Positions 23,190 to 59,437 of a stretch of DNA of 64,000 bases are shown in pieces. The DNA comes from Eucommia ulmoides (lineage: Eukaryota; Streptophyta; Magnoliopsida; Garryales; Eucommiaceae). The position numbers were made by a program, and so were the translations under genes. The notes under the pieces were generated by a model that was given only the letters and a program-made list of their open reading frames with translations, made no database searches and was not told the DNA's origin. Location of the stretch: assembly GCA_016647705.1 (NCBI GenBank), contig CM028335.1, positions 11,236,905-11,300,904 on the forward strand, given 5' to 3'. How positions within the stretch are numbered: the first letter of the stretch is position 1; the number at the start of each line of letters is the position of its first letter.

Positions 23190-23246
<57 letters not shown>

Positions 23247-27378: not shown

Positions 27379-27418
<40 letters not shown>

Positions 27419-29880: not shown

Positions 29881-31068
29881 AAAAAGATCATAAAAGGAAC
29901 CACATGTATTAATCAAATTTGAGGATCATCAACTACTAACGACATTTTTTCAATACAAGTTTGACAAATGGAACCAGTTTGGTGCATTTGACGAATGGGA
30001 CCACAATTAAGTGCATAGGTTGTTAGGTCTTTGTCGGTTGCCGTAAACGTAATACCGAGTCAGGCAAAATACAGCAGCCAGTTGAGTTGCGTGGTCTTTC
30101 GGGTTCGTTGTCTCAGTCAATTTGTTAGATTTTGTGCCGTTCTCTACTTACTCCTATTTACTTTAGGCATGTTCTTGAAAGTGACAAATCATTAAAAATA
30201 TATAATTAAAAAAAAAGGGAAAAAAAAGGGATTAATTTGGAGGTTTCTTGATCATGCTAACATCTAGGGCACCACGTGCATGGAAAACAGCCAACCCAAA
30301 GCCTCTGGTTTTTTAAAATTTGATAATTATTTGAAATTGTTTTTTTGTTGTGATTGCTTGTGAGAGAAGACAATTACTTTGTTTGATCAGTCACTAAAAA
30401 ACAGTTTTAATATAATTAAAAGAACGATGATTGTCAGAATAGAAAGCACATCCACTTTCTTTAATATTAAAATTAAGAGTTAAAACATGTGAAAAAGGCA
30501 TGTTTTTGAAAGGGTAAAGTTTCTTAATCATGATAACATGTAGGGCAACCACGTGCATGGAAAACAGCCAACCGAAAGCCTCTGGTTTTGTAATGCTCAA
30601 TTTCGTTTGTAATTTGATAACAATATTCTTTTGTTATTTGATTTTTTTTTTTTTTAATTGTAATTTTTTGTGAGAGAAGACAATTACTTTGTTTGATTGG
30701 TCACTAAAAAACAGTTTTAATATATAATTAAACAAAAAATAGTTGTCAGAATAGAAAGCACATTCACTTTCTTTACTACTAAAATTAAAACATGTGAAAA
30801 ATACTATTGTTTTTTTTTTTTTTTTACAAAAAATTGGCTGTGAAAAGAAATTTTAATCACTACACCTCCCACTAAAGAGGCATATCACATAATACTACAT
30901 AATCGCTAGATTATAAATCATGGGTTGAAAATAACTATCTTATGTGATACTTCCGCAAGTTAACTTTTTATTTTTATATTTTTTTGTAACTTATCAAAAT
31001 ATAGAGTTTTTATTTTGAGTAAATTTTAGGGTTAATTATAATTTGCACCCTTGTGGTTTGACCTAATT
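29875..31068. repeat. Diverged partial third copy of the large tandem repeat
   Basis: Matches pieces of copies A and B in the same order but at lower similarity. The AGTTTGACAAATGGAACCA region (29957) matches near 47068; CAGTTGAGTTGCGTGGT (30080) matches near 33734 and 47592; ACCACGTGCATGGAAAACAG matches near 33880 and 47738; and AACTTATCAAAATATA (30990) matches near 35780 and 48660. Only parts are retained. It lies immediately before copy A, so an older cycle of tandem duplication is likely. Confidence 0.65.
30240..30815. repeat. Local tandem duplication, unit about 285 bp
   Basis: 30240-30524 and 30525-30815 both contain CACGTGCATGGAAAACAGCC, CTCTGGTTTT, TGAGAGAAGACAATTACTTT, CACTAAAAAACAGTTTTAAT and TCAGAATAGAAAGCACAT in order. 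Copies A and B of the large repeat have this unit once each, so this duplication is private to the upstream copy. Confidence 0.8.
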
Positions 31069-33400
31069 TGTAATACCCCGAAATTATTATTTTTGAAAAT
31101 TATATTTTATTTGAAGTAAATATCTTTTGGATTATTTTGATATATTATGAAACTTTTAAGATATAAATGAATATTTGATAATTTGAGGGCTATAAAGTGT
31201 AATTAAGGTTTGTAATTTTTGGAGTTGAAAAGTGTGTAAGTATGTGTGTGGGTGTTGTGGGTTACATGAGGATATATGAGTGAGGTGTTTGTGATACCTG
31301 TGAGGATAAGAGAAAAAGAAGAAATGTGGATAATGAGTATGTGGATCCCACTAATTGTGTATATATATATATGTATATGTGTGTTTATATTGAAACATGC
31401 GTAATTCTTATTGAGACATGCGTAAGACTTGTAAATTTTTGGATATAAATGTGTGTGTATATATTATATGTGACTTTTGTATTGGTTGTGTTGAGACGTG
31501 TTAAAAAAGATGAAATTGAAAAAAATATATTTTAACCCATGAAATTTTTGATGATTTTTAATTAACCCTATTGATTCAGTTGAAGAAAAAAATGAAATTA
31601 CTCTTAATTTTTAAGTGAAATAAGACAATTACCTTTAATTTTGTTAAATTTTTAATTGATGCACAAGGGTGTAATATATAATTAGGTCAAATCACTGCGT
31701 ACAAAGGTAATTAATCTTAATTTAATGATCCTACAAAGCATTGATTCTCTTTCATTTGTCTAACTTAATTTAATCATCATCAACTTAATATGCTTAACAT
31801 GTTGGACAAAAATAATTTTAAAATTACTTTAAGTTTAATTATTGGTTAATTTTATTTTATACACCAATGATTAGAACGAAGTGCACTTCATACCCCTGTA
31901 TTGTTTTCGTCACAACTTACACTACCTGTGCTTAAGACTTATTAAATTTTTTATTAAATTTAATTTTCTATAGGTAAAAGTCAAGTAAAATCATATAATG
32001 TTAAATGACATGTATACCATTTAAAAAATTAATAGGAATTTATTTTAACACTAGTTCAAAAATTAGGGATCAATATTGTATTTTTCTTCTTTTTATTAAC
32101 CTCTCTCCATCTTCATTTGCATCTTCAACTTCTTCCCAGCAACCAATCACCACATGCCGACCACCACCAACCAACCAACCACATCGAATCACAATCGTGC
32201 CAAACACATAGGGGTGCAAAGTGAAATTAACCCTTTCATTATTTATATGATTTAATCATTGTTTGAGATATTTGCATACATCAATATGTGCTTCTTAGTG
32301 AGAAGACAAACTTGAAATATTGATTTGTCAAAAATTATTAAGATATAAAAGCGAAATTACCTTTCGAAGTAATCTTATGTGGTTGATTGACGCATGTAAA
32401 GTGAGTAATCTTACGTTGGTTAGTGATAAACTAAGGCATGATGAATCGGCAAACAAGGGTGTCGTGGGACAACACCAACAGACATTGGGTGTTGTTAAGC
32501 TAAGACTAAGGTGATCTTAGGTTCAATGCTAGGATTGGTGCAATGAGCGTGTAATGACACCGGGTAAGACCTTGACATGAGGTTAATGTAACAAATGTCA
32601 ACATGCATCGACACGCATTAGCAAAATAGGATGTCGTTGGGCAATGTTGGTGTACATTAGCAACATTGGCATGTGGTGCAAGACAATACTAAGTGTGGTG
32701 CTCGGATTGAATTTCATGGGCGTGATGTGAAATTAATTAAGGGAAGACTTTGGTGCAAGATTAAGACAAGGTGAATAGATGGTGGGCACAATACCACGTT
32801 CTGATCATAGTCATGTAGATGGCGTGACATACCGTTGCGACACAATGGTACAGTCTAGTTAGAAACATACATATGGTATGGCGATTCGTTTGGTGCAGTA
32901 ATGCAACGAAGATGCAACGGAATGGGTAAAGTTAGCTAGACAGCTAGTGCTATTGGTGCGTGGGCAGTGTGCGCAAAAATTGGCTAAGTATGGACAGCTT
33001 GGGACATGTACTTGGCATATGGGTGTAGTTACTGATTTGGGCCACAGATTTGGTTAAGTAACTACCCGACATTCTTGTCCAGACACCTCTCCAGTAGTTT
33101 ATGACTATGTTTCTGGTAGTTGGGGTATCAATTGTCTTCTTTATATATAAATTTTGGAATTGTATACTCGGTTCTGCATGGAGTATTGTTCCTGCAACCG
33201 TTAACCTGAATAGTATGTATTTTCCTTATTTTAGTTGAGTGATAAAAATAAGGTCGGTTTTGACTGTAATTGTGTGTGTGTGTTTATTCTGTTTTTGATG
33301 TGTATGTGTGCGTTGGTTTGTATTGACATCGGTGTTGTCTCGGAACAGTAGTATCGTGGCTGACTGATAGATGCACAATCGAGCCATCACAAGTGCAAAA
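31069..33400 (+). mobile_element. Probable Ty3/gypsy LTR (Tekay/Del-like), partial; fossil
   Basis: Begins TGTAATACCCCGAAATTATT, a classic start of Tekay/Del-type LTRs, and carries a promoter-like CTTTATATATAAA near 33140 followed by transcribed-looking sequence. No second LTR, primer site or coding interior can be assigned, so it may be a solo or truncated LTR. The first 93 bp (31069-31161) are missing from the duplicate at 44464, where the duplication breakpoint lies. It has no coding content of its own. Confidence 0.45.
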
Positions 33401-34190
33401 AATTCAAGTTTAAAATTAAACCTGTGACGGTATGCATCAAAGTAGGGCGACGGGATAGCCTATGCATTAGGTGTAAACGAGCGTATAGAATCATTGAAAG
33501 ACTACATAGGTGCGCCTATAAACAATGCCAAGCAAAGCTTATCTGTTTAACGTGCAGAGAGATGGACAAAGATCAACAACCTTAGGATATCGTTTGTAAA
33601 ATTCTACTGCAACACTACTGCTAGAATTAAAACCATGTCTGAGGTCATAATTGTGTTTGGCACGGGTTAATGGTCATGTGCACGAACAAGGACTGGACAT
33701 GCTTAGATAAGCCAAGCAAAATACAACAAACAGTTGAGTTGCGTGGTGTTTATGGTTCGTTGTCTCAGTCAATTTGTTAGTTTTTGTTCCGTTTTCTACT
33801 CGACACTGATCTACTCCAGTCATGTTCTTGAAAGGGAATAATTTGGAATTTTCTTAATCATGATAACATGTAGGGCAACCACGTGCATGGAAAACAGCTA
33901 ATCGAAACGAAAGCCTCTGATTTTTTAATGCTCAATTTTGTTTGTAATTTGATAACAATATTCTTTTTCTTTTGTTATTTGAAATTGTTTCATCAGTTAC
34001 TAAAAAACAATTTTAATATAATTAATTGAAAGATAATTGTCAAAATAGAAAGCACATTCAGTTTCTTTAATACTAAAATTAAACCATGTGAAAAATAATT
34101 ATTTTTTTAGGTATAAATAATTGGGACAGTTACCAAAAAGTTCTGATATGAGAACAAAATTACGAAATACATTTTTTTGTAAAACATGTT
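33400..34190. other. Repeated spacer in copy A
   Basis: Non-coding sequence shared with copy B (46660-46920 and 47560-48110) and in part with the diverged upstream copy. Holds the CAGTTGAGTTGCGTGGT and CACGTGCATGGAAAACAG phrases. No gene is seen. Confidence 0.5.
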
Positions 34191-34224
34191 ACAAAATAGT
34201 CTTTTTGTGACGATTTTATCCTTC

Positions 34225-34345
34225 GCGTTGAATATAACACGAGATCGTGTTGAATATAGCACGAAATCGTGTTATATTCAGCACGATTATTCAACATGAT
34301 CTCATGTTGAATATAAAACAAGATTGTGTTATATTTCATTTTCAT
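34225..34345. repeat. CACGANATCGTG palindromic minisatellite, copy A
   Basis: Short alternating direct and inverted units of 20-25 bp: ACACGAGATCGTGTTGAATA, GCACGAAATCGTGTTATATT, then GCACGATTATTCAACA and further decayed units. Each unit is a near palindrome centred on ATCGTG/CACGAT, so the block can form cruciforms or a short hairpin RNA. Confidence 0.75.
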
Positions 34346-34489
34346 CGCCATTCAAATTCTAGCAAGCCGCCGTATCCATTCCATGTCACTGCAATAATCA
34401 TACAATATACCCAACATAAGCTCCATTCCACTGGGTGCATAGATTAAGTTTCTTCTCTCTCTCTCTCACACACACACACACATTTGTTT

Positions 34490-35525
34490 AGGTGATGAGT
34501 TCAGGGCCGCAGCCATCATATTATATTCTAATTTTTTCATCCAAATTGATAATTCTCTATTTACATTCATATGCCTGATTTTTTCCCAATATAAATCAAA
34601 TCAATCCAACCAAATAAACCCTAAATACTACATACATACGTACATACATATATATATATATATATATTAAATTCACCATTTAATCCAACCAAATCGATTC
34701 AAAACAAATCATCCAAATCAATACAAACTCTAGAAAATAGAGACACACATTGATCCGTGTACACCCACACATTGATCTGTGTACACCCACGCCGAACAAT
34801 CGTTGAAGACAAAGTTCAATTAGGTCAATTGCTAAAAGGATTTCACAACAACAAAACCTAGACGAACATAGCAAAATTGAAAGAAAGAACGAATTCATTG
34901 AAATCTGGAACTAAATAACTTCCAGAAAACTTAAATTATCATGCATAACAAAGAAAATCGAGATCAATACTCTCGAAATAACAACAATTAAGAGATGAAA
35001 AGAAGATCGAGCAGGATTAAAGCAACATACCCCTCTCTCGAAACAGAAATTTCTCCAGCGAACAGAAATTCTTTATCGACCTGAACAGAAAATTCTTCGA
35101 CCTGAACTGTAGATTTTTTCTCAGTTTTAGATCGGAAATTTGATCGATTTGGGGGAAGAGAGAAATGGAGGATCCGAAGGGTAGCGGAAGAGGAGAGAGA
35201 GAGAGAGAGAGAGAGCTGAACGAGACAAACTATGGTGGCGTTAATAACCCTCAGGCCTTCGGCAAAGCGCAATGAAAATCCAAGAAAATTACGAAGCGAA
35301 GACTTGCGCCGGTGACGGCCTCTACCCTAGATTTGTTATCGGCGTGTTGACGAGCGGACTGGAGGCGACGATGATGACGGTAGCGGCGGCGAACTCCAAA
35401 GCGGAGACGGCCAAGAGGTGAGAGGCGATCAATTGATCGATCTCAATGGGGAAGGGAAGCAACGAAGCGACGGAAATGGGAAATCAAAGGTAAAAAGAAT
35501 GTGCAAGAAGGGTAAACTAGTCAAT
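34490..35525. other. Segment present only in copy A
   Basis: Copy B runs directly from TTTAGGTGACGAG (about 48396) to AATATTTTGGACTATTCTG. In copy A about 1.0 kb lies between the corresponding points. It contains (TA)n near 34650, a GA tract near 35190-35213 and GC-richer sequence near 35290-35420 that looks like a plant 5' exon or leader. No target duplication is evident, so loss from B or gain in A cannot be told apart. No protein is recognised. Confidence 0.6.
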
Positions 35526-36436
35526 TCAAAATATTTTGGACTATCATGTGCGAACCAACATTTTTTGAAGGACTATTTGGTGCAAATAAAAAGTAGCGGG
35601 GCCATCTTATAATTTTAGTCTTTTAAGTGAATTATTCGGTATTTTTCTCTAAATAATTTGAAAGTTTTTAATACTAGATCTCCCATTAAGGAGGCACAAT
35701 AAATTACGGTTAGTTTTTAAAAAATACTATATTATGTGATGCTTGAACAAGTTAACCTTTTATTTTTAATGTTGTTAGTAACTTATCAAAATATAATTTT
35801 ATTTTGATTAAATTTTAGTGTTACTTATAATTTGTACCATTGATCTAATTATATTTTGCATTCGTCAGCACTTATATCTTTTGTATTTCGGACTCAAATC
35901 CAATAGTTAACTATTCTTTTAATTAAAAAAAAAAAAAAAAAAGTCAAGCAAAAATAAATTATTTAAACAAAACACACTCAAATAACATTTATACACTAAT
36001 TAAATAACATTTATACCCTTCAAATTAAACAAAACACACTCAAATAATTTTAACGGATGATTTATACACTAATTCAAAAGTTTAAAGGGGCAAAATAAAA
36101 TTTTATAAATCCCATCATCAGCAATCGTGGGCAAATCAACCCAACTTTCCTTCACTGGCAAACCGACCAATCTATGGCGAACCACCACACCTACGACCTC
36201 TATTTCCCTTATTTTTTAGTTCTCCGGCAAATGGGTATATTCAATTTCTCTCTCTAAAAGCTTCTCTATCTGAGCTTCTTTCTATTTATCAATTGAATGC
36301 TTTTGAGGGATATAATTCTTTTTGTTCATTGAAAATGTTGCTAAATATTATTCGGAAGGCAAAAAAATGAGATTCGGATGTGATCCAGACCTATATTTTA
36401 TTTTTATTTTTATTTTTTTTATTTTTTTATTTTTTA
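35526..36436. other. Repeated spacer before the copia LTR, copy A
   Basis: Matches 48400-49280 closely. It contains the AACTTATCAAAATATA repeat also seen near 30990 and a long T/A-rich run at 36400-36436. No coding sequence is seen. Confidence 0.5.
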
Positions 36437-36811
36437 TGTTAGACATCTCTAAATGATTCTTACAAAAAAAACAAACATGCTTTATAAACAAAATAGTATG
36501 AAAAATGACAAAATGCAGAATTGATTACTAACCTTCAGCCATTGACGTTTTGAGCGAGTTTCTCTGTGTATCGGTGCTTCTACACTCTAGCAACTCACTT
36601 AGATGGTATATGTTTCGAAATTGTTGAGCATAGGGACCCTTTAACGATTTGGATATATAGAGAGATACAATATGTACGTTTTACCATAAGAAACGTAACC
36701 AAAAGCAAACCAATGGGCATGTAACGTTTTTCTTATTAAAAACATAACTAAAATCAAATTAAGAAGGAATATTGAGTGATATGCGGATCATTAAAGGAAA
36801 AATAACTCACA
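36437..36811 (-). repeat. Candidate copia 3' LTR, copy A
   Basis: 375 bp with TG/CA ends; equivalent to 49281-49654. The outer edge rests on an A/T-run, so that limit is less certain than the inner one. Confidence 0.5.
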
Positions 36812-39429
36812 TTCTCCCACTTCGTCCGTATATATTTACAATTATACTCAAAGTTCACGAATCCCTCTTCTTAAGAAAAGAAAGAAAACACATGAATCTT
36901 GATAAGTCCTCTAAGAGCGAATATTATCTTCCATGTATAACTATGCATTCTATTTCTTTATCAATAGCCCATTATTACTTAATGAACAAACCTTATGTTT
37001 ATTCTAGGTCCAATAATATTTGTTATTCTTAACATAAATGTGTTTACCAAAATGAGAAAACAACACAAATAAATAAGAGTTTCATTACAAATGACAAAGT
37101 CACATGATGGAACCAAGTCCCATTCCTGCTACATGATCCTTAAAACTCCTTGGTGGCATGCCTTTTGTTAAAGAATCAACAATCATCAATTCAGTGCTAA
37201 TGTGCTCAATGACCACTTTGTTCTCCTTAATATGTTCCTTTACAACTAAATACTTGATATTGATATGTTTACTTCGACTACCACTAGTTGTTTTTAGCTA
37301 AGAAAATCGCAGCCGAATTATCACAATATATCTTAAATGGCTTAGAAATAGAATCCACAATTCTAAGCCCAAATATAAAACTCTTTAACCATACAACATG
37401 TGAGGTAGCCTCAAAACAAGAAACACACTCAGCCTCCATGATAGAAGTAACAGTCAAGGTATTCTTTGCACTCATCCAAGACACGGCTCCGCCAACAAAC
37501 ATAAAAATGTATCCAGATGTTGATTTTAATGAATCAACACACTCAGTGAAACCCGAATCCGAGTAACCAACTACCTCTAGATGGTCAGTTCGCTCATACA
37601 TAAGCATGTAATCCTTGGTCCCTTTAAGGTACCTTATTACTTTTTTTGTAACTCTCTAGTGGTCCAAACTTGGATTACTCTGATATGTTCCCAACATTCC
37701 AACAACAAATACATTGTTAGGTCCTGTACAAATCTAAGCATACATTAGACTTCCAGTAGTAGAAGCATATGGAATCTTTTAATATTACCTAATGAATCCT
37801 TTTTAGTTTTAAAGATTCATTTACATACAATGATCTTTGCGCCTTTAGGTAATTCAGCAAGATCCCAGACTCCATTAGATACCATAGAATTCAACTATTC
37901 TTTTATGGCATTGTGCCACAACTCAGAATTTTTGCAACTCATGGCGTGTGAAAATATTTGAGGATCATTTTCAGCTCCAATGTCATGGTCAGCTTCTTGT
38001 AGATATACATGTAATCACTAGTATTGCTAATTTCTTATTCCTAGTTAATCTTCTTAATGTTATATCAATATTCTCTTGAGGAGCATGTTCTACAACTAGT
38101 TGCTCAACAGTGTCTAGTAATTACTGAACAACTGGATCTACTAGATTATCATCAACAACTTGTGGAATCTCAATAATTGGTTGTCCAATACCCGTTTGTA
38201 TTTGAGGAGAGCTATGATTGATAGCCCACCTTTCACTTGCAATGGGGTTTTGGATATCAGAATGATTCATCTTAGGAACTAAGCCCTGAGACGGATTTCT
38301 CCCACTCTTTAAGTCATTCTTAAGAAATTTTGCATTTATTGTTTCAAAATTCTATTGCTATGAGATAGATAGTAAAATCTGTACCCTTTGGACCTTTCAA
38401 CATATCCAATTAAATACCCACTTATAGTCCTTGGGTCCAGTTTCTTTTATTGTGGATTGTAAGCTCTTACTTTAGAAGGGCATCCTCAAATGCGTATATG
38501 TTGCTAATTTGGTTTCCAACGTTTCCAAATTTCAAATGGCATTTTAGAAACTGCCTTAGTTGGAACTCGATTTAATATATACACTGCCATTTTAAGAGCC
38601 TCTGTCCACAATGATGAAGGAAGTTTGGAGTTGCTAAGTATATTCCTTACCACGTCCATCAATGTACAATTTTTTCTTTCTGCTACACCATTTTGATTTG
38701 GAGTGCCAGGAAGATGTTTTGAGAAACAATACCCTGCTCTTGAAGAAAATCAGCAAATGGATCAGATACTTGTCCAATTCCCGTGTATCTACCATAGTAT
38801 TCAACGCCTCTATATGATCTCACAATTTTAATTTGTTTTCCACATTATCTCTCTACCTCTGCTTTAAATATTTTAAAATCATCCATCATTTCGTTCTTAT
38901 TATGAAACAGGTATATATATCGCGAGTGATCATCTATAAAGGTGATAAAATATTTATGACCATGCAAACTCATATCAGGACAACAAATATCATTATATAT
39001 GATGTCTAATAATTCAGAACTCTTTCTGGTACCTTTCTTGATTTTGTTTGTCTGCTTTTCTTTAATGCATTCAATACATGAATCAAAATTTGAAAAATCA
39101 AGAGCTTCAAGAACTCTATAATGCACTAACTTTTGATTCTCTTAATGAAGATATGTCCCAATCTCTAGTGCCACAACATGAAAAAAAATTTATTCATAAC
39201 ACAACGTTTAATATCAACATTATCATGTACATGCATTGTGTTATAAAGGGTTTTGTCTTACAAATTAATTCGAAAAAGACCATTAGACATTATACCATAC
39301 CCAACAAGATCAGATTTATAAAATAATTTAAAAGATGTATCTAAAATGTTAAAGGAATAACCAAAAGGTACAAGTCTTGAAACTGAAATCAAGTTTCTAG
39401 AGATACTCACAACAAGAAAAATAGGATTC

Positions 39430-39800
39430 AGTTACGATTTTTTTTGGCGACGACACAATAATCGTCGCCAAATGTGTCTATTGGCTACAAAATGAACAAT
39501 CGTAGCCAAATATGACCTCATTTGCCGACGAAGTGCCAATTTGTAGCCATAGGTTGTTAATTGGCGACAAAATTTTAGAATTCGTCGCTATTGGTCCGAT
39601 CAATTCTTGGCGCCAAACAAAAAAGAAAGAAATATTTCCCGCTAGTATTTTGATGACATAAATATTTCACCCCCAATGTAGCACGAGATATGTTTTTATT
39701 TGGCGACGAACCACTTTCGTCGTGATTAATTACCCCCTACTATATCTGCGACGAAAGTGGTAGGTCGCCAACGTGGTTGCCTATATTTAACATTGGGCTA
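39430..39800. repeat. CACTA left subterminal repeats
   Basis: Many copies of a 10-12-bp motif, GGCGACGA or its complement TCGTCGCC, plus the variant TTGGCTACAAA, in both orientations. Confidence 0.8.
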
Positions 39801-40024
39801 CGAATGAGTTTCGTCGCCAATTTTTTTCCCTCCTTACCATGGTTTTGGCACCCACTTTCCCGCTATTACATTAGTTGGATTTTTTGTTTCTCTTTTTGTC
39901 TAGATTTTCCCCACACTCTCCTTATACCCACCCCGAAACCCTTTAGTTCTCTCATCCCTCTCTCCTGATCTCATCCCTGTCTCTTGATCTCAGACTCCAC
40001 TGTCTAGCTAACCCTTTAATCGAC

Positions 40025-40310
40025 GACCTGGAACCAAATTGCCACTGCCTAAACACCTAGAAATTGAATCGACAGTGGAGAAAGCCCTAATCGCAATGAC
40101 GACGGCTGGGAAATCTCAGAGTTTCTTTTTCTCTCTCTCCGTTGCGGTAACTTTTGGCGACCTAGAACCAAATCTCCACTGCCTAAACAACCTAGAAATT
40201 GAATCGGCGGCGGAGGAAGCCCTAATCGCAACAACGACGAAGACGATGGTTGGGAAATCTCGGAGTTTCTCTCTCTCTCTCTCTCTCCGTTGTGGTAACT
40301 TTCGACTTCA
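40025..40310. repeat. Direct duplication inside the CACTA element, unit about 130 bp
   Basis: Two copies begin GACCT(G/A)GAACCAAAT and share CACTGCCTAAACA, CCTAGAAATTGAATCG and GCCCTAATCGCAA, each ending in a CTCTCTCTC tract followed by CGTTG(C/T)GGTAAC. It resembles a duplicated 5' leader. A 92-codon frame spans both copies but is only a repeat reading. Confidence 0.75.
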
Positions 40311-40519
40311 TTTATGATTATTTGTTGTTTTGATTTCTAATTTTATCCATGAACATCAAGAATTTGTGGATATGCCAGTAGATGAAGTTGGTTTTCAATT
40401 ACAGTTGTCTAATTTGTGTTTTGGTTTTCAAACATCCAGACGCTACTCTGCCTGTCCAGGTTGCCAAGTAAATTGTTTCACAGTGACATAATCTGGTATG
40501 TAGATTGCTTGCTCATTCT

Positions 40520-40830
40520 CTCAAAACGTTTATGTTCTATTTCTGTTTCTATTCTATTTCTGTTCTGTTTAGGTTTCTGTTCTATTATATTTATATTTTG
40601 TTTAGGTTTCTATTCAACGTTTCTATTCTATTTCTGTTCTGTTCCGTTTCTATTTTTGTTCTATTTATGTTTTGTTTATGTTCCGTTTCTATTCCGTTTC
40701 TCGTTTTTGTTATGTTTCTGTTCCGTTTCACGTTTCTGTTATGTTTCTGTAATGGTTGTTTCATAACACGTTTCTGTTATGTTCTGTTTCGTTTCTGTTT
40801 CTGTTCTGTTTCTGTAATGGTCGTTTCTGT
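40520..40830. repeat. TTTCTGTT-type pyrimidine minisatellite
   Basis: Irregular repeats of TTTCTGTTCTGTTTCTATT-like units. The same motif recurs at 41740-41775, 42300-42375 and 43130-43230 inside the same CACTA element. Confidence 0.8.
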
Positions 40831-41516
40831 TGCTATTGTTAGATTGATTTAGATCTTTTTAACTATTGTTGTTAGTATCTATGTTTGGATTTGCTGCCTT
40901 TGTGAAGTGTTCTTGATTCTCTTGTGCAGGCAGTGTTCTCCCTAGTGAAGTATGTGTTCTGCTATGTTATCGTTCTTAAGCTAGATCGCTCATAGTTTAG
41001 TTCATTTTGAATCTTGGTTGCTGAATGCAGTTAGTGTTATTTTATTTGCCTAGTGTTATTTTATTTGCCTAGTGTTATTTTTCTTTCACTGTGGTTTTTT
41101 TATTCTTGAAATAGATGGCATTTGACCACTGATATGTAGGCAATGGTCCTTGACCTCTCTTTTGCTCTTGGATTGCTGGATCAACAAGCTGATTTACAGT
41201 TCTTTATAGTTGTGCTTAGAAGGCATGTATGTTATCCTTTTTATGCATTTTGTTGTATTTGATTGCTATATTCCCTCTTTGTTTGAGGATGTTGTTTCCT
41301 TAAAAAAAAATAATAAATAAATAATATCTTAATTTTTTGGAATTTATTAGCCCTGATAAGCATTTTCTTTACCTATTATGTGTTTATTTGAAAATTTTCA
41401 CTTCCGCGTTCTTTTTGTTTCTTCTAGCTTTTACATCTTGATTCTCTCCCTACCCAAGAGGACTGAAGGTTGGGGCTTGTTTGGTTGTTTTTAATTTGCA
41501 AATTGTGCTATTTCTG

Positions 41517-42460
41517 TTGCTGCTGCTGCTGTTTCGACGGTATTGAGTTATTGGTGATGATGATTCACGCTCCCTTGAGCAAATATGAGCCATTGTTTAC
41601 CCTCACAGGTAATACTTTCTCTCAATTTTCTTGTGTTTCTGTTGCTGCTACTGTTTCAACGGTATTGAGTCATTGGTAATGATGATTTACGCTCCTTTGA
41701 GCAGATCTGAGCCATTGTTTACCCTCATAGGTAAATTTGGTTTCTGTTTCTGTTTCTATTTTGGTTTCTGTTTTTATTGCTGCTGCTGTTTTGACGGTAT
41801 TGAGTCATTGGTGATGATTATTCATGCTCACTTGAGTAGATCTGAGCCATTGTTTGTCCTCACAGGTAACATTGTTCACCCCAGTTCCTTTTGTGTTTGC
41901 TGCCTGAGCGAAAAAACTCAGAATTCTATGGTTTGTTTCAAACTGATATTTTTGATTTCATTTGAGTTTATATTGCTATATCTTGTCAATCTCGCTCTCT
42001 CTCTCATTTACTTTGTGTGGCTTCATTGTGTGTCCTCCCTTTAGTGTATTGATTTTTTTGCTGTGATATTTATCTAACCACTGAACCATATTTAAGGCCC
42101 ATGAAAGCAAAAAAAAAAAAATTGACAGAGTATGGAATTGTCACTCAATGCATTACCCCTCAAAGGGTTAATGATCAATATTTGACAAATGTGCTTCTCA
42201 AAATCAATGCTAAGGTATGATCCTGATAGTGTAATGTGGTTTGTTGTGATTATGAATAATTGAATACCGTCCATTCTGTTGCTGCTGCTGTTGCTGTTTC
42301 CGTTTATGTTGCTGCTTTTATTTCGGTTTTGGTTTCTGTTTCTATTTTGGTTTCTGTTTCTGTTTCTGTTGTTGTTGCTGTTTCGATGGTATTGAGTCAT
42401 TGGTGATGATGATTCACGCTCCTTTAAGTAGATCTGAGCCATTGTTTGCCCTCAATGTAA
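41517..42460. repeat. Four-copy 95-bp module inside the CACTA element
   Basis: Copies at about 41517-41612, 41641-41734, 41777-41869 and 42371-42460. Each starts with a GCTGCTG-rich run, contains ACGGTATTGAGTCATTGGTG, CACGCTC and TGAGCCATTGTTT, and the first three end CTCA(C/T)AGGTAA. The CAG|GTAA end looks like an exon-intron border. The copies are separated by TTTCTGTT minisatellite or ordinary sequence. Confidence 0.8.
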
Positions 42461-43969
42461 CATTTTCTCTCAATTTTCTTGTGCTTGTGGAAACAAGTAA
42501 CATCTTCATCTTCACAGATTTTGTTGTGTATAAATTCAGTTGCCAACCGTAGAACTCTGCCTTCTTGGGGCTAGCCGCCGTTAGAACGGTTGCGTCCTTT
42601 GTTGTGAATAAATTCTTAAATATCAATTTTTGAATTAATTGACTATTATTTTTTATGCTTGAGTTTTTCTGTCTGATATTAGGTGATTTCACGATCTGTG
42701 AATCATTTTGTGAATTTGGGAGATGGAATCAGTGGGCAGCGGATGAGGCATTGTTGGATAAGGAAACGTTACAAAGAGATACCCTGAACTAGGTATCTCT
42801 TCAATTATGATACATTTTGTTTATGCTCCCAAATTTCAGAACAAATTTCTTAAAACAATTTTTGTTTATGTGTTGTTCATTGTTTTTAATTGTTGCATTC
42901 TGTTTATTACTTACGTTTCTCTTCCCAATAGAAACAGAAATTTGGGAAAAAAACCTTGTTCTACTTTTAGAAATTTATCATTAAAAAAATTAGGATTATA
43001 AAAACATTAAAACACTAAATAAACAATTTGTTTACTAGGTTATTTTGTAATGAAGCTAACTGTTTTCATGTTGGTTGCCTGTTGACTACTAATGCATATA
43101 TATACCTAATGCAAAGTCATATATGTTTGTTTTTGTTTTTGTTTCTATGTTTGTGTTTCTCTTTTTCTGTTTCTGTTTATATTTTTGCTCCCATAATAAT
43201 TAGGAATGTAGGTTTCAATTTTGGTTTCTGTTTCTGTTGTTGTTTATGCGCCCTTTTTGCATGTGTTTATTTTTAAACATTAGAGGCAAAAATATAATGA
43301 ATAAAAGGAGGTTGGGAGGAGGAAACATATCTACCTATAGTATTTATTTATATAGTTTTGTATTAATTACAATACCATCTTTTGTTTTGAATGAAAGGAG
43401 GTTAGGATTCACCCCATTTTCTTTTTTTGTTTCTCTGATTTTGTTTCTCTATTTCTGTTTGTGTTCACAGATAAGGGCGTTAGCGTAAAAAAATGTGGAT
43501 CTGCCTTCATCGTTGACTCCTTATCTCCGTCTTGTACTGATCTGCCTTCGTCGACAGCTCGCCGCTCGTCCCTAGCTTCGATCTGCCTTCTTCGCCAGCT
43601 CGCCACTTAACTTTGTCAATATTTTACCTTCGCCGACCCCGTCTTGTACTTTCTCTGATACCGATCTGGCACTCTCTCTCTTTCTCTCTCAGCTACTATC
43701 TTCAAAGACTAAATTAATCTTCAATGTCCACTTCGATTTGTATAGATACTTAATTTCTCGTTCAGGATTATACTTGTTCAATGTCCAAACGGTTATACTT
43801 GTTCAATGTCCAAACAATTTGATGTATTTTTGGGTTTTGTAATTTATATTAATATGTTTGTATTTATTGTGTCATTTGTAATGTATGTGGATTTATAATT
43901 AACAGAAAAATGAGTTTTAATTAGCAGAAAAAAGTAATTTATATTAATTTGTTTCCTGCCTTCACATAT

Positions 43970-44285
43970 TTTTTGGCGACAAAAATAATATTGTCGCCAA
44001 AAAATTTCCCGCCATTTAAGTCCTTTTTTGGTGACGAAAATTTTTCGTCGCCAATATGGCAATCACTTTTTGGCTACGAAATCAATTTATTAGCTACAAA
44101 TTTAATTAATAAATAATTCGTTGCTAAATAGTAGTCTTGCGCGACGGAACTAAAATTCGTTGCCAAAAACCTTCTGCTACAGCACATAGGCTACGAAATT
44201 GGAACAATAATTTTTTTGTCACTAAAACGTTTTCGCTACGAAATTAGGACATTGGCTACAATTTTTTTTTTTTTGTAGCCAAATC
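43970..44285. repeat. CACTA right subterminal repeats
   Basis: Same motif family as the left end: TTTTGGCGACAAAA, ATTGTCGCCAAAAA, TTTTCGTCGCCAA, TTGGCTACGAAAT and others. Confidence 0.8.
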
Positions 44286-44463
44286 CCATTTTTCTTGTAG
44301 TGACTTGGAATATAAAATGTTCTTTTCAAATTCATAACAAAACTAAAATCTAAAATTATTTTGCATATTCCAATGGCTTTCACATGTGAACTCATCTTGT
44401 TTCCTGAATAGATGTTTTACTCACTGCCCATCGGCTTCCTTTGGTTTAGAAAGTTCTGCAAGG

Positions 44464-46660
44464 TATAAATGAATATTTGATAATTTGAGGGCTATAAAGT
44501 GTAATTAAGGTTTGTAATATTTGGAGTTGAAAAGTGTGTATTTATGTGTGTGGGTGTTGTGGGTTACATGAGGATATATGAGTGAGGTGTGTGTGATATG
44601 TGTGAGGATAAGAGAAAAAGAAGAAATGTGAATAATGAGTATGTGGATCCCACTAGTTGTGTATATATATGTATATGTGTGTTTATATTGAGACATGCAT
44701 AAGACTTGTAAATTTTTGGGTATAAATGTGTGTATATATTATATGTGACATTTGTATTGATTGTGTTGAGACATGTGTTAAAAAAGATGAAATTGAAAAA
44801 ATATATTTTGACCTATGAAATTTTTGATGACTTTTAAATTAACCCTATTGATTTAGTTGAAGAAAAAATGAAATTACTCTTAATTTTTAAGTGAAATAAG
44901 ACAATTACCTTTAATTTTGTTAAATTTTTAATTGATGCACAAGGGTGTAATATATAATTAGGTCAAACCACTGCGTACAAAGGTAATTAATCTTAATTTA
45001 ATGATCCTACAAAGCATTGATTCTCTTTCATTTGTCTAACTTAATTTAATCATCATCAACTTAATATGCTTAACATGTTGGACAAAAATAATTTTTAAAT
45101 AATTTTAAGTTTAATTATTGGTTAATTTTATTTTGTACACCTGTGATTAGAACGAAGTGCACTTCACACCCCTGTATTATTTTCGTCACAACTTACACTA
45201 CCTGTGCTTAAGACTTATTAATTTTTTTTATTAAATTTAATTTTCAATAGGTAAAAGTCAAGTAAAATCATAAAATGTTAAATGACATATATACCATTTA
45301 AAAAATTAATAGGAATTTATTTTAACACTAGTTCAAAAATTAGGGATGAATGTTGTATTTTTCTTCTTTTTATTAACCCCTCTCTATCTTCATCTGCATC
45401 TTCAACTTCTTCCCAGCAACCATTCACCACAAGCCGACCACCACCAACCAACCACATCGAATCACAATCGCGCCAAACACATAGGGGTGGAAAGTAAAAT
45501 TAACCCTTTCATTATATATGTGATTTAATCATTGTTTGAGATATTTGCATACATCAATATGTGCTTCTTAGTGAGAAGACAAACTTGAAATATTGATTTG
45601 TCAAAAATTATTAAGATATAAAAGAGAAATTACCTTTCGAAGTAATCTTATGTGGTTGATTGAAGCATGTAAAGTGAGTAATCTTACGTTGGTTAGTGAT
45701 AAACAAAGGCATGACAAATCGGCAAACAAGGGTGTCGTGGGACAACACCAACAGGCATTGGGTGTTGTTAAGCTAAGACTAAGGTGATCCTAGGTTCAAT
45801 GCTAGGATTGGTGCAATGAGCATGTAATGACACCGGGTAAGACCTTGACATAAGGTCAATGTAACAAATGTCAACATGCATCGACACGCATTAGCAAAAT
45901 AGGATGTCGTTGGGCAATGTTGGTGTACATTAGCAGCATTGGCATGTGGTGCAAGACAATACTAGGTGTGGTGCTAGGATTGAATTTTATGGGCGTGATG
46001 TGAAATTAATTAAGGGAAGACTTTGGTGCAAGATTAAGACAAGGTGAACAGATGGTGGGCACAATACCACGTTCTGATCATAGTCATGTAGATGGCGTGA
46101 TAGACTATTGCAACGCAATGGTACAGTCTAGTTAGAGACATACATATGGTGTGTTGATTCGTTTGGTGTAGTAATGCAACGAAGATGCAACGGAATAGGC
46201 AAAGTTAGCTAGACAACTAGTGATATTGGTGCTTGGGCAGTGTGCGCAAAAATTGGCTAAATAGGGACAGCTTGGGATATGTACTTGGCATATGGGGGTA
46301 GTTACTGATTTTGGCCACAGATTTGGTTAAGTAACTGCCCAGCATTCTTGTCCAGACACCTCTCCAGTAGTTTATGACTATGTTTCTGGTGGTTGGGGTA
46401 TCAATTGTCTTCTTTATATATAAATTTTGGAATTGTATACTGGGTTCTGCATGGAGTATTGTTCCTGTAACCCTTAACCTGAATAGTATGTATTTTCCTT
46501 ATTTTAGTTGTGTGATAAAAATAAGGTCGGTTTTGATTGTAATTGTGTGTGTGTTTATACTGTTTTTGTTGTGTTTGTGTGCGTCGGTATGTATTGACAT
46601 CGGTGTTGTCTTGGAACAGTAGTATCGTGGCTGACTGATAGGTGCACAATCAAGCTATCA
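44464..46660 (+). mobile_element. Probable Ty3/gypsy LTR region in copy B, left end removed by duplication; fossil
   Basis: Duplicate of 31162-33400 and about 95% similar by a hand sample, with the same promoter-like CTTTATATATAAA (near 46413). It lacks the TGTAATACCCCG start because the duplication breakpoint lies inside the LTR. Confidence 0.45.
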
Positions 46661-46924
46661 CAAATGCAAAAAATTCAGGTTCAAAATTAAACCTTTGACG
46701 GTATGTATCAAAGTAGGGCTACGGGATAGCCTATGCAATAGGTGTAAATGAGTGTATTGAATCATTGAAAGGCTACATAGGTGCGCCTATAAACAATGCC
46801 AAGCAAAGCTTATATGTTCAATGTGCAGAGAGATGGGCAAAGATCAACAACCTTAGGATATCGTTTGAAGAATTCTACTGCAACACTACTACTAGAATTA
46901 AAACCATGTTTGAGGACATGATTG

Positions 46925-47560
46925 TGTTGGCCGACTTATAGAAAATGAACTTTAGGCATGTGAAGAAGACCTTTTATTGGTTAAGAAGATCATATTATGA
47001 TACGGAAAAGAACCATACGTATCAACTAATTTGAGCATCATCAATTATTATGGAGAATTTTTTTCCAGGACAAAAGTTTGACAAATGGAACCAATTAGTT
47101 GCATAGGCTGTTAGGTCTTTGTCAGTTGTTGAAATGTAACGTTGCGCATCACGGATCGGGCCTTTTAGGCCAACAAATGGGCCGTTTGGCACTACCTAGG
47201 ACACGCCCCTAATAGGAAGCAAGAATTCCTGAAATCGAAAGTAACGGAAGCAACAATAGTTTGTAAGCAACAAGGTTCACCACAAGCGCATGCTAGTAAG
47301 AAAGTGAACATAACAACAACAATGCATTAACAACAAGACAGTATGGTACAAGATTTGAAAGACTTTAAAGACTTAAGAGCATGTCCTCCAATAATATACA
47401 TTAAGTAAAAAAAATACCAGTGCCACCAGTAGGCATCATTTTGCTCAATAAATCATAATGAGCCCCCGTAACAAAACAAAAGAAATAAAAAAAACTGTAC
47501 TACTATTTACAACATAAGAGTCACGGGTAGATGGTCATGCGCGACCAAGGACTGGACAAA
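46925..47560. other. Segment larger in copy B than in copy A
   Basis: Copy A has only a few tens of bases here (33656-33690). The first part (46960-47130) matches the diverged upstream copy at 29880-30030, so it is ancestral and was lost from A. The part at 47150-47520 (with GGGCCTTTTAGGCC and AACAACAACAATG) has no counterpart elsewhere in the window. No gene is recognised. Confidence 0.6.
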
Positions 47561-48119
47561 CTTAGATCAGCCAAGCAAGATACAACAAACAGTTGAGTTG
47601 CGTGGTGTTTATGGTTCGTTGTCTCAGTCAATTTGTTAGTTTTTGTTCCGTTTTCTACTCGACTCTTATCTACTCTAGTCATGTTCTTGAAAGGGAATAA
47701 TTTGGAAGTTTCTTAATCATGATAACATGTAGGGCAACCACGTGCATGGAAAACAGCTAACCGAAACGAAAGCCTCTGGTTTTTTAATGCTCAATTTTGT
47801 TTGTAATTTGATAACAATATTCTTTTTCTTTTGTTATTTGACATTGTTTTTTTATTATAATTTTTTTGTGAGAGAAGACAATTAATTCGTTTCACCAGTT
47901 ACTAAAAAACTATTTTAATATAATAAATTGAAAGATAATTGTCAAAATAGAAAGCATATTCAGTTTCTTTAATACTAAAATTATATCATGTGATAAAAAA
48001 AAAAAAAATTGGTATAAATAATTGGGGCAGTTACCAAGAAGTTCGAGAACAAAATTACGAAATACACTTTTTGAAAAACATGTTACAAAATAGTATTTTT
48101 GTGATGATTTTACCCATCA

Positions 48120-48235
48120 CGTTAAATATAATGCGGGATCGTATTGAATATAGCACGAGATCGTGTTACATTTAACACGATTATTCAACACAATCTCATG
48201 TTGAATATAAAACGAGATTGTGTTATATTTCATTT
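48120..48235. repeat. CACGANATCGTG palindromic minisatellite, copy B
   Basis: Equivalent to 34225-34345, slightly more decayed (GCGGGATCGTATTGAATA, GCACGAGATCGTGTTACATT). Confidence 0.7.
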
Positions 48236-48399
48236 TCATTGCCGTTCAAATTCTAGAAAGCCACCATATCCATTCCATCTCACCGCAATAACCATACAAT
48301 ATACCAAGCATACGCTCTATTCCACCAGGTTCATAGATCAAGTCCTTTCTCTCTCTCTCTCACACACACACACAAACACACATTTGTTTAGGTGACGAG

Positions 48400-49280
48400 A
48401 ATATTTTGGACTATTCTGTGCAAGCCAACGTTTTTTGAAGGACTATTTGGTGCAAATAAAAAGTAGTAGGGCCATCTTGTAATTTTAGCCTTTTAAGTAA
48501 ACTATTTGGTATTTTTCTCTAAATAATTTGAAAGTTTTTAATACTAAATCTCCCATTAAGGAGGCACAATAAATTATGGTTAGTTTACAAATTTTGGGTT
48601 TAGAAAAATACTATTATGTGATGCTTCAACAAGTTAACTTTTTATTTTTATGTTGTTCGTAACTTATCAAAATATAATTTTATTTTGATTAAATTTTAGT
48701 GTTAGTTATAATTTGCACCCTTATGGTTTGATCTAATTATATTTTACACCCTTATGGTATTTGGTCAACACTTATATTTTCCGTATTTCGGACTCAAATG
48801 CAATAGTTAACTATTCCCTTAATTTTTTTTAAAAAAAAAAGTCAAACAAAAATAAATTATTTAATATTAAATAACATTTATACTCTTCAAATTAAACAAA
48901 ACACAATCAAATAATTTTAATGGATGATTTATACACTAATTCAAAAGTTTAAAGGGGCAAAATAAAATTTTATAAATCCCATCATCAGCAATCGTCGGCA
49001 AATCAACCCAACTTTCCTTCACTGGCAAACCGACCAACCTATGGCGAACCACCACACCTACGACCTCTGTTTCCCTTATTTTTTAGTTTTCCGGCAAATG
49101 GGTATATTCAATTTCTCTCTCTAAAAGCTTCTCTATCTGAGCTTCTTTCTATTTATCAATTGAATGCTTTTGAGGGATATAATTCTTTTTGTTCATTGAA
49201 AATGTTGTTAAATATTATTCGGAAGGCTAAAAAATGAGATTCGGATGATCCAGACCTATGTTTTTTTTTTTTTTTTTTTA
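48400..49280. other. Repeated spacer before the copia LTR, copy B
   Basis: Counterpart of 35526-36436; ends in a T-run at 49259-49279. No gene is seen. Confidence 0.5.
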
Positions 49281-49654
49281 TGTTAGACATCTCTAAATGA
49301 TTCTTACAAAAAAACAAACATGCTTTATAAACAAAGTAGTATGAAAAATGACAAAATGCAGAATTGATTACTAACCTTCAGCCATTGACATTTTGAGCGA
49401 GGTTCTCTGTATATAGGTGCTTCTACACTCTAGCAACTCACTAAGATGGTATATGTTTTGAAATTGTTGACCATAGGGACTCTTTCACGATTTGGATATA
49501 TAGAGAGATACAATATATACGTTTTACCATAAGAAACATAACCAAAAGCAAACCAATGGGCATGTAACGTTTTTCTTATTTAAAACATAACTGAAATCAA
49601 ATTAAGAAGGAATATTGAGTGATATGCGGACTATTAAAGGAAAAATAACTCACA
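49281..49654 (-). repeat. Candidate copia 3' LTR, copy B
   Basis: Counterpart of 36437-36811; the inner edge abuts a purine-rich tract in minus orientation. Confidence 0.5.
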
Positions 49655-52600
49655 TTCTCTCACTTAGTCCGTATATATTTACAATTATACTCAAAGTTCA
49701 CGAGTCCCTCTTCTTAATAAAAGAAAGAAAACACATGAATCTTGATAAGTAGTCTTAGAGCGAATATTATCTTCCATGTATCACAATGCATCCTATTTCT
49801 TTATCAATAGCACATTATTACTTAATGAACAAACCTTATGTTTATTCTAGGTCCAATAATATTTGTTATTCTTAACATAAATGTGTTCACCAAAATGAGA
49901 AAACAACACAAATAAATAAGAGTTTCATTACAAATGACAAAGTCACATGATGGAACCAAGTCCCATTCATGCTACATGATCCTTAAAACTCATTGGTGGC
50001 ATGCCTTTTGTTAAAGGATCAACAATTATCAATTCAGTGCTAATGTGTTTAATGACCACTTTGTTCTCCTTAACATGTTCCTTTACGGCTAAATATTTGA
50101 TATTGATATGTTTACTTCGACTACCACTAGTTGTTTTTAGCCAAGAAAATCGCAGCCGAATTATCACAATATATCTTAAATGGCTTAGAAATAGAATCCA
50201 CAATTCTAAGCCCAAATATAAAACTCTTCAAACATACAACATGTGAGGTAGCCTCAAAACAAGAAACAAACTTAGCCACCATGATAGAAGTAGCAGTCAA
50301 GGTATGTTTTGCACTCATCCAAGACACGGCTCCGCCAACAAACATAAAAATGTATCTAGATGTAGATTTTAATGAATCAACACACTCAGTGAAATCCGAA
50401 TCCGAGTAACCAACTACCTCTAGATGATCAGTTCGCCTCTACATGTGCATGTAATCCTTGGTCCCTTTAAGGTACCTCATCACTTTCTTTGTAACACTCC
50501 AATGGTCCAAACCTGGATTACTCTGATGTGTTCGCAACATTCCAACAGCAAATGCATTGTTAGGTCCTGTACAAACCTGTGCATACATTAGGCTTCCAAT
50601 AGTAGAAGCATATGGAATGTTTTGCATTTGTTCCATTTCAAGCTCATTTTTTGAGCACTAGTTCAAATTGAATCTGTCACCCTTCACAATAGGTGCTACA
50701 ATGGGTTAACAATCCTTCATTCAAAACCTCTCTAAAACCTTATTGATATAGATTTCTTGAGATAGACCCAAAATATTGAGATATGTCTCTATGAATCTTA
50801 ATGCCAATGATATATGATGACTCACCTATATCCATCGTATCAAAATTATTAGAGAGAAATTGTTTCACCTCATATAGTAACCCATTATCATTAGTTACAA
50901 GTAAAATATCATCCACATTCAGAACAAGGAAATAAATTTTACTCCTACTAACCTTCTGGTATATGCATTGATCCATATTGTTTTCCACAAAACCAACTGA
51001 AGAAATGACATCAAGGAATTTCAAATACTATTAGCGGGAGGCTTGTTTCAATCCATCTATGGATTTCTTGAGCTTGTATCCCAAATACTCACCATCACTA
51101 AAAGAGAATCCTTCTGGTTATTTCCTATAAACATCCTCCTTTAGGTCTCTATTGAGAAATGTTATTTCCACATCCATTTGATGCAGTTCCAAGTCAAAAT
51201 GGGCAATCAATGCCATAATAACACGGAGATAATCTTTCTTAGATATAGGATAAAAAGGTCTCTGTGTAGTATATTCCTTCTTTTTGAGTGAATCCTTTGG
51301 AAACGAGTCTTGCTTTTTATCTTTCAATATTACCTAATGAATCATTTTTAGTTTTAAATATTCATTTACATCCATGATCTTTGTGCCTTTAGGCAATTTA
51401 GCAAGATCCCAGACTCCATTAGATTCCATATAATTCAACTCTTCTTTCATGGCATTGTGCCACAACTCAGAATTTTTGCAACTCATGGCGTGTGAAAATA
51501 TTTGAGGATCATTTTCAGCTCCAATGTCATGGCCAGCTTCTTGTAGATACACATGTAATCACTAAGTATTGCTAATTTCTTATTCCTACTTAATCTTCTT
51601 AATGCTATATCAACATTCTCTTAAGGAACATGTTCTACAACTAGTTGCTCAACAGTGTCTAGTAATTACTGAACAACTAGATCTACTAGTTTATCATCAA
51701 CAACTTGTGGAATCTCAATGATTGGTTATCCAACACCCGTTTGTATTTGAGGAGAATTATGACTGATAGCCCACCTTTCACTTGCAATAGGGTTTTGGAT
51801 ATAAGAATAATTCATCTTAGGAACTAAGCCCTGAGACGGATTTCTCCCACTCTTTTAGTCATTCTTAAGAAATTTTGCATTTATTGTTTCAAAATTCTAT
51901 TGCTATGAGATGGACAGTAAAATGTGTACTCTTTGGACCTTTCAGCATATCCAATGAAATGCCAACTTATAGTCCTTGGGTCCAATTTATTTTATTGTGG
52001 ATTGTAAACTCTTGCTTTAGAAGGGCATCATCAAATGCGTATATGTCGCATATTTGGTTTCCAACGTTTCCAAATTTCAAATGGCATTTTAGAAACTGCC
52101 TTAGTTGGAACTCGATTTAATATATACACTGCCATTTTAAGAGCCTCTGTCCACAATGATGAAGGAAGTTTGGAGTTGCTAAGCATATTCCTTACCATGT
52201 CCATCAATGTACGATTTTTTCTTTCTACAACACCATTTTGATCTAGAGTGCCAGGCAAGGTGTTTTGAGAAACAATACCCTACTCTTGAAGAAAATAAAT
52301 AAATGGATCAGGTGCTTGTCCAATTCCCATGTATCTACCATAGTATTCAATGCCTCTATATGATCTCACGATTTTAATTTGTTTTCCACATTATCTCTCT
52401 ACCTTTGCTTTAAATATTTTAAAAGCATCCAACGCTTCGTTCTTATTATGAAGCAAGTATATATATCGCGAGTGATCATCTATAAAGGTGATAAAATATT
52501 TATGACCATGCAAACACATATCAGGACAACAAATATCATTATATATGATGTCTAGTAATTTAGAACTCTTTTTAGCACCTATCTTGATTTTGTTTGTCTG

Positions 52601-53320
52601 CTTTTCTTTAATGCATTCAATACATGAATCACAATCTGTAAAATCAAGAGCTTCACGAACTCCATCATGCACTAACTTTTGATTCTCTTAATGAAGATAT
52701 GTCCCACTCTCCAGTGCCACAACCCGGAAGTTTTTTTATTCATAACACAATGTTTAATATCAACATTATCATGTACATGCATTGTGTTATGAAGGGTTTT
52801 GTCTTACAAATTAATTCAAAAAAGACCATTAGACATTATACCATACCCAACAAGATCAGATTTATAAAATAATTTAAAAGATGTATCTAAAAAGTTAAAG
52901 GAATAATCAAAAGGTACAAGTCTTGAAACTGAAATCAAGTTTCTAGAGAAACTTGAAATATAAAATGTTCTTTCCAAATTCATAACAAAACTAAAATCTA
53001 AAATTATTTTGCATGTTCCAATGGCTTTCACATGTGAACTCATCTTATTTCCTGAATAGATGCTTTACTCACTGCCCATCGGCTTCCTTTGGTTTAGAAA
53101 GCCCTGCAAGGTATTTGAAATTTGGATTGTAGAACTAGAATCAATCTACCAAGTGTTATGACAAACATCAACCATATTAGATTCATAAAAAACAAGTGAG
53201 GTTAGATTACCTTTCTTCTCAAGCCAAGCCTTGAATTTGACACAATCCTTCTTCATGTGCCCCTTCTTTTTATATAAAAAATACTTGGATTCCTTATTCA
53301 AGTCACTTAGGAGGGGCACT
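49281..53320 (-). mobile_element. Ty1/copia 3' part in copy B, cut by a second CACTA element; fossil
   Basis: Candidate 3' LTR 49281-49654. Then on the minus strand come RNase H (about 49940-50410, ending with a DPLTKGMPP motif), reverse transcriptase (about 50640-51330), a linker, integrase (about 52030-52680, with [10 protein letters not shown] and FIDDHSRY motifs), a GAG-pre-integrase/protease region (about 52800-53050) and a zinc-knuckle-like remnant (about 53200-53300). The order is the standard copia one. The 5' end and LTR are not seen because a CACTA element begins at 53321. The reading frame is broken in many places (around ten), so this is an old non-coding copy. Confidence 0.85.
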
Positions 53321-53908
53321 CACTACAGGAAAATTAGTCTATAACAGGAATTATTCTAGCGGCAATTAAAAAATAGCCACTTAAAATATATTTTTAGCGA
53401 CAAATTTTTTAATTGTTGCTAATTTATTGCAATTGCCGCTAAACATTGAAATATTAAAGCACATTTTGGCGTCAAATTTTGGCACCAAATTTTGAATCCC
53501 ATTCTTTACTTAAAGAAAAAATCAAAGTGAAAAAAAAAAAAAAAAATAAGGAACAAATTATTCAATCATTAAAAAAAAAAAAATTAAATACAAAAAAAAA
53601 AAAAAAAAAAAAAATTAAAAAAAAAATTAATATACAAAACTTATTTCCCAAACCACTCTCCCAAACAAAACAATATTTTGTTGTCAACCACTCCCACCTT
53701 TCCCTAACCCTCTTCTTCGTTGCCTCTCCCCAACTTTCCTGCTCCATTGTTGGGTAAGAGCCCCATCTCTCTCTCTCTCTCCTCCATGGAAGTCGCAAGG
53801 CCCACTCCATATTTTTACCTATTCATGTCTTCGTGCGATTGTTTCTCCGAGTTACATCAGGTAGATGCGCATAAGAAATTCAAATCGAGATCCAGAAATA
53901 GTGGATCC

Positions 53909-54131
53909 TGTTGGCGTGAGCTGTATACTAATTTAGTTGAGAGATTTTAGGAGTTTGATTATACTATAGTTGTATACGTCCCATTTGTAATGGGGTCTTT
54001 ATTTACTTGCCTAAGTTTGCTACGTACCCATAGTTTTCCTAATTAGTTGTTTGTGTATATATATCTACCTTGTAAGTTGAAGAAAGAAATGGAGAAAAAA
54101 ACCTTGTTCAAAAATTATTTCTTATTTGACA
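53909..54131 (+). repeat. Copia 5' LTR
   Basis: 223 bp, TG...CA, followed directly by the primer-binding site. Confidence 0.95.
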
Positions 54132-58649: not shown

Positions 58650-58872
58650 TGTTGGCGTGAGCTGTATACTAATTTAGTTGAGATATTTTAGGAGTTTGAT
58701 TATACTATAACTATATACATCCCATTTGTAATGGGGTCTTTATTTACTTTCCTAAGTTAGTTCTGTACCCATAGTTTTCCTAATTAGTTGTCTATGTATA
58801 TATATCTACCTTGTAAGTTGAAGAAAGATATGGAAGAAAAAACCTTTTTCAGAAATTCTTTCTTATTTGACA
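58650..58872 (+). repeat. Copia 3' LTR
   Basis: 223 bp, preceded by a purine tract and followed by the GATCC duplication. Confidence 0.95.
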
Positions 58873-58877
58873 GATCC

Positions 58878-59437
58878 AAGTAGAGATCATCGATGGAAAG
58901 ATCGCTAGATTGCGCGTACTCGAGGGAAATGAGAGCGACAACAACAAGGAAGCTGGGACCGACGATTTCTATTAAGGAGCGAATTGGGTTCTCGGTGCAC
59001 AGACATCGGCCGATGATTTATGCGGTCAATTTCTTTCAGAAGGTTGTGTCTTCTTAAAAATCGTAATCTTATCTTAATGTTAATTACTTACACTTTGTTA
59101 TTATTTTCATTTGCGTTGTGGTTACAATATGAGAATTGCAACTTCAGTTGTCTCAAACCCTTCAACGTCTTGCAAGTCAAATTCTCATCCCTCTCACATT
59201 GGTCACCCTGAGACAAGTGAAGTTTTTTATTATTCCAGGATTTCAATAAATTATACTTCGATGTTACTCTGATAGCCAAAATTCAAAATTGAATTGAACA
59301 AATGCACTCTATTATGATTTACATAATTAGTCCACTCCACTAAGACAATGTTAATAAACTTACTAGCCGATAGCTAGATCTTTCTGTATGAACTAATTGT
59401 TAATCTTTGTTGGACATTGTATTTTATTTTGTTTTAG
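58878..59437 (+). other. Exon/intron-like cargo upstream of the ULP2-type exon
   Basis: GC-richer sequence to about 59040 (GATGGAAAGATCGC..., CTCGAGGGAAATGAGAGCGACAAC), then AT-rich, intron-like sequence ending in GTTTTAG at 59437. I cannot assign a protein to the first part with confidence; it may be leader or exon sequence of a second captured gene. Confidence 0.4.

Follow-up and report, generated by a model that had tools for sequence, protein, structure and literature searches.

The closest described systems come from rice, barley and maize. According to the available part of a rice study, 27 non-collinear gene copies were attributed to NHEJ in 14 cases, to transposons in 12 and to NAHR in one, and rice CNVs were assigned to non-homologous recombination (52.98%), mobile element insertion (44.28%) and NAHR (0.48%) (PMC4812662). 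In the accessible portion of a barley CNV study, motifs of 2 to 40 bp were reported at the breakpoints of 123 insertions/deletions (41.1%) (PMC3706897). For maize, the sections at hand describe reversed-ends transposition of Ac, which gave head-to-tail copies, one of them of 8,157 bp, with Ac and an 8-bp target duplication at the breakpoints (PMC3744419).

The locus compared here with these systems lies within 64,000 nucleotides of the Eucommia ulmoides genome (contig CM028335.1, positions 11,236,905-11,300,904; this whole analysed stretch is referred to as the window). Its assembled sequence contains a direct tandem segmental duplication of ~8.6 kb, arranged head-to-tail and copied once. As far as the available parts of the three studies go, the locus resembles the rice end-joining duplications and CNVs in having breakpoints with microhomology or none, whereas the rice gene copies are at non-collinear positions and the copies here are adjacent, with no host gene recognised in a limited scan (PMC4812662). 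Its short breakpoint motif is similar to the barley DSB-repair signatures, although those events are insertions/deletions, 54% of them under 100 bp, rather than an 8.6-kb tandem copy (PMC3706897). The head-to-tail arrangement is shared with the maize duplications, but the junction at 44464 carries neither Ac nor an 8-bp target duplication (PMC3744419). We regard the event as an ordinary, well-resolved case of a known class. The two copies (self-BLAST and block alignment) and the blocks in which they correspond (self-BLAST) are as follows.

31162..44463, plus strand: copy A, the left-hand duplicate, 13,302 bp
44464..53111, plus strand: copy B, the right-hand duplicate, 8,648 bp
31158-33657 equals 44460-46928, same strand: block 1
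33661-34499 in A equals 47522-48399 in B, same strand: block 2
35530-37780 in A equals 48400-50623 in B, same strand: block 3
37774-39407 in A equals 51319-52953 in B, same strand: block 4
44303-44466 equals 52951-53114, same strand: block 5

Copies A and B adjoin on the same strand and are collinear in five blocks in the self-BLAST of the window, which agrees with the adjacency and orientation given in the original prediction. The ~5% divergence that it had estimated from a hand sample is close to the measured identity of 94.1% (6,841 of 7,270 gap-free sites over the five blocks, large indels left out); the block alignments show 273 transitions against 156 transversions, and their K2P distance is 0.062. 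The block alignments were used instead of a single global alignment (93.1% over 7,263 sites, K2P 0.073) because the latter misplaced the last block around a CACTA-like insertion (last bin of 105 sites, 47.6%). Position 53114, previously given as the end of B, takes in the shared TAT (53112-53114); B itself ends at 53111. The anticipated collinearity was recovered, but the CACTA-like insertion at 39408-44302, the main source of the extra length of A, was absent from the earlier description.

In a very heterozygous plant, alleles might conceivably differ by ~6% and by large indels as well, and two haplotypes of one locus set end to end during assembly, the second copy being allelic, would give the same flank outline as a true duplication. 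Such an artefact is nevertheless quite unlikely. For alleles, 6% is a high value; scaffolding normally leaves Ns, whereas the junction is continuous base to base and the window contains no N. Moreover, no third near-identical copy was detected, the next best genome matches reaching 77% for 44460-46000 (among 40 of 1,808 candidates scored) and 86% for 51800-53114 (among 40 of 352 candidates scored). The large differences between the copies are as follows.

39408..44302, no strand assigned: CACTA-like insertion in copy A only, 4,895 bp, with inverted ends and a 3-bp target duplication ACT
50617..51318, plus strand: copia sequence of 702 bp, in B and relatives, missing from A at 37774 (A/B alignment, relatives)
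46929..47518, plus strand: 590 bp in B, missing from A (A/B alignment)
34500..35529, plus strand: 1,030 bp in A, missing from B (A/B alignment)

Copy A is longer than copy B mainly because of the 4,895-bp insertion, which has no counterpart in B; minus this insertion and its 3-bp target duplication, A measures 8,404 bp. The ends of the insertion, CACTACAAGAAAAA on the right and CACAACAAGAAAAA on the left, differ by one mismatch, with CACTA at one end and CACAA at the other. CACTA transposons are defined by inverted ends beginning with CACTA and by a 3-bp target duplication, and 39408-44302 has both features. No transposase was recognised in the seven scanned of its nine listed ORFs of at least 90 aa, none of which gave a Pfam match above the curated cut-off; this would fit a non-autonomous or decayed CACTA-like element. 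The 702 bp at 50617-51318 are present both in B and in relatives, which identifies this difference as a loss in A. Part of B's 590 bp (47006-47128) recurs in the left flank, which makes loss in A the likelier reading of that difference. At A's 1,030 bp (34500-35529), no target duplication was recognised, and gain in A or loss in B are both possible.

Between the right end of the CACTA-like insertion (44302) and the junction (44463) there are only 161 bp, and maize Ac/Ds is described, in the available part of that report, as yielding direct tandem duplications that range from 8,157 bp to ~5.3 Mb (PMC3744419). Under alternative transposition, the ends of two nearby DNA transposons would have produced the tandem copy, the CACTA-like element taking part; this route is on these grounds conceivable but extremely unlikely, because the element occupies a separate site bounded by a 3-bp duplication, and in B that site is empty with a single ACT. 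In the maize cases, as given in the same sections, the element sits at the junction (PMC3744419), whereas no transposon end was seen in the letters around 44463/44464, which were read by eye.

The block itself is rich in repeats, a copia element among them.

49281..53320, minus strand: degenerate copia element whose relatives run across 53111 (genome matches; RVT_2)

The presence of a Ty1/copia element in the block is indicated by a copia-type reverse transcriptase (Pfam RVT_2) on the minus strand at 50740-51027 in copy B (E 8.3e-9). The Pfam scan covered 17 of the 24 ORFs of at least 90 aa listed for 29500-54500; in this set RVT_2 was the sole match above the curated cut-off inside the block, and a match to DUF805 stayed under its cut-off. 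No host gene was recognised in the block among these 17 of 24 ORFs, a scan in which genes with short exons could be missed, and neither Rfam (gathering scores) nor a tRNA scan gave a match within the window. For much of the left half of the block no named element was recognised; parts of it are 74-91% identical to short stretches at other genomic sites. Both breakpoints lie inside repeats whose relatives, found at other loci of this genome, allow the old edges to be compared with the new join.

44461..44466, plus strand: derived junction, copia interior joined to LTR-like repeat at the shared TAT (44464-44466) (letters; exact 21-mer)
31069..31374, plus strand: LTR-like repeat across the left edge of A (alignment to relatives on C12 and C17)

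The sequence reads TTTTAAGA / TATAAATG at 31162, CTGCAAGG / TATAAATG at 44464 and CTGCAAGG / TATTTGAA at 53112, matching the junction letters reported earlier, and the exact 21-mer over 44463/44464 occurs once in the genome (947 Mb, 391 contigs). The repeat at ~31069-31374 begins TGTAATACCCC and is named LTR-like from these first letters only. Three other copies of the repeat, one from a locus on C12 and two from a locus on C17, cross the left edge of A (31162) unbroken, with small gaps elsewhere only; these two loci are the best matches to the left end of B among 40 of 1,808 candidates scored. At the right edge of B, 39 of 40 non-self copia matches run across 53111 with at least 24 bases on each side (genome search with query 52960-53330, 40 of 185 candidates scored), and the remaining one reaches 9 bases past it. 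Five of six fetched copia relatives cross 53111 as one aligned piece; the sixth, on C17, splits not at 53111 but at 53087-53091, ~20 bases off the breakpoint. In this relative (C17:17159594-17164353), 5 bases are common to the two pieces, which lie several kb apart, a pattern expected of an insertion that made a 5-bp target duplication.

Since relatives cross both outer edges, A is continuous with the left flank and B with the right flank. The outer edges are thus ancestral, the left one as judged from two loci, and 44463/44464 is the only derived junction. A or B might also be imagined as a mobile element inserted between TAT target duplications, a reading that was rejected because the copia sequence continues past B into the right flank, and the LTR-like repeat begins in the left flank and extends into A. 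This repeat had been noted before as unrelated LTR sequence preceding 31161; it is indeed LTR-like, but it starts at ~31069 and runs on into A. Nor is the left side wholly unrelated to the block, although the similarity stops short of the edge: the left flank has six matches to B, five of which lie between 29893 and 31068 and correspond, at 70-93% identity and in broadly the same order, to 47006-48738, one part being doubled in the flank, while the sixth, of 34 bases, lies elsewhere.

The exact run common to both breakpoints is TAT (3 bp). One base to its left, A at the left point stands against G at the right point, and further left AAG is again common to both. The relatives carry the same mismatch, with A in all three left and G in all four right relatives shown (of six fetched), so the exact microhomology was 3 bp and not a longer run spoilt later by mutation; the mismatch is probably older than the duplication event. 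TAT is not invariant: TAC takes its place in one left relative (of three) and in one right relative (of four). It is because the breakpoint repeats have relatives elsewhere that the ancestral edges are readable and the exact 3 bp is known despite later mutation. Such comparison of edges with repeat relatives could be extended to many duplications in a repeat-rich genome, setting microhomology against chance. As a single event without a recognised host gene, the present case is ordinary.

When 200,000 random breakpoint pairs were drawn from this window at spacings of 6-12 kb, 6.8% had at least 3 bp in common, which makes the TAT match weak evidence for microhomology use and suggestive at most as a sign of a microhomology pathway. 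The predicted 3-bp microhomology is upheld insofar as TAT alone is shared exactly, but a match of this length is not rare by chance. Longer homology between the two breakpoints was not found, either in self-BLAST of the window or in the 600 bases around each, where the best local score was 21; of 300 random pairs, whose median was 24, 79% scored at least as high. These random pairs were 12-14 kb apart, a range that spans the copies' own spacing and inflates the upper tail, hence the use of the median.

These values bear directly on unequal crossing-over (NAHR) between repeats flanking the block, for which the position of both breakpoints inside repeats and the likeness of the left-flank pieces at 29893-31068 to the interior of B (70-93%) might be cited. 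The breakpoints lie, however, in different repeats with exact sharing of 3 bp, and the local similarity around them is under the random median, which leaves this route with hardly any credibility. Given this lack of longer homology between the breakpoints, we prefer end joining or template switching to crossing-over between repeats. In the part of the rice study available, most CNVs were likewise ascribed to non-homologous recombination, so the mechanism favoured here is also a common one (PMC4812662). The original prediction had preferred replication-based or end-joining duplication to crossing-over; the disfavour of crossing-over is borne out by the sharing of TAT only, but the two pathways are not told apart by the sequence. 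End joining, polymerase-theta-type joining, template switching and circle re-entry all leave the same letters. In the last of these, a circular copy of the block, closed at TAT, would have returned to its original locus through homologous recombination; the three junctions would be the same and the sequence alike. This route is a variant of our preferred explanation with the junction step in common, but it takes two steps where one suffices, and we consider it very unlikely.

The explanation that we prefer, and to which as a whole we assign a probability of about 0.85, is that a single event would have copied the 8.6-kb repeat-rich block head-to-tail. A break or stalled fork may have occurred at the right point, within the degenerate copia element, the left point being placed ~93 bp into the LTR-like repeat. 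The right end would then have been joined, or copying would have switched or re-primed, to the left point on the sister or same chromatid, with exact pairing of at most 3 bp (TAT) at the join. Subsequently, the CACTA-like element would have entered copy A, and other stretches may afterwards have been gained or lost in A and B.

Plant substitution rates are 6.5e-9 to 1.3e-8 per site and year, at which the A/B distance of 0.062 gives a rough age of ~2.4-4.7 million years. An LTR-type element is present upstream at 19527-28563; its LTRs measure ~2.65 kb and are 96.6% identical (gap-free sites), the interior spans ~3.8 kb, and C strongly outnumbers G. The distance between its LTRs (19527-22180 and 25937-28563) is 0.035, which would place them later than the A/B duplication; repeats mutating faster may shift both dates.

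About 59 kb downstream of B on the same chromosome, a 2.2-kb stretch at 111844-114019 (window coordinates) is ~74-75% like 31501-33655. This relative and the left-flank pieces may represent earlier local duplicates or belong to a repeat family. They also allow the doubtful suggestion that the locus is prone to repeated copying, A and B being the latest of several local duplications across millions of years. A second partial match to the left part of the block follows at 114442-114916 (window coordinates).

Just right of copy B, a copia-type element at 53909-58888 carries LTR-like repeats of ~240 bp, which agree at 90.8% of gap-free sites, and, outside the block, a copia gag match above the Pfam cut-off at 54182-54505. 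At the other end of the window, positions 1-9342 are occupied by an array of a ~550-bp repeat that continues upstream to about -11299. One unit has 35 matches, full or partial and counting itself, at ~91-98% identity; recurring partial units suggest a higher-order pattern in this array.
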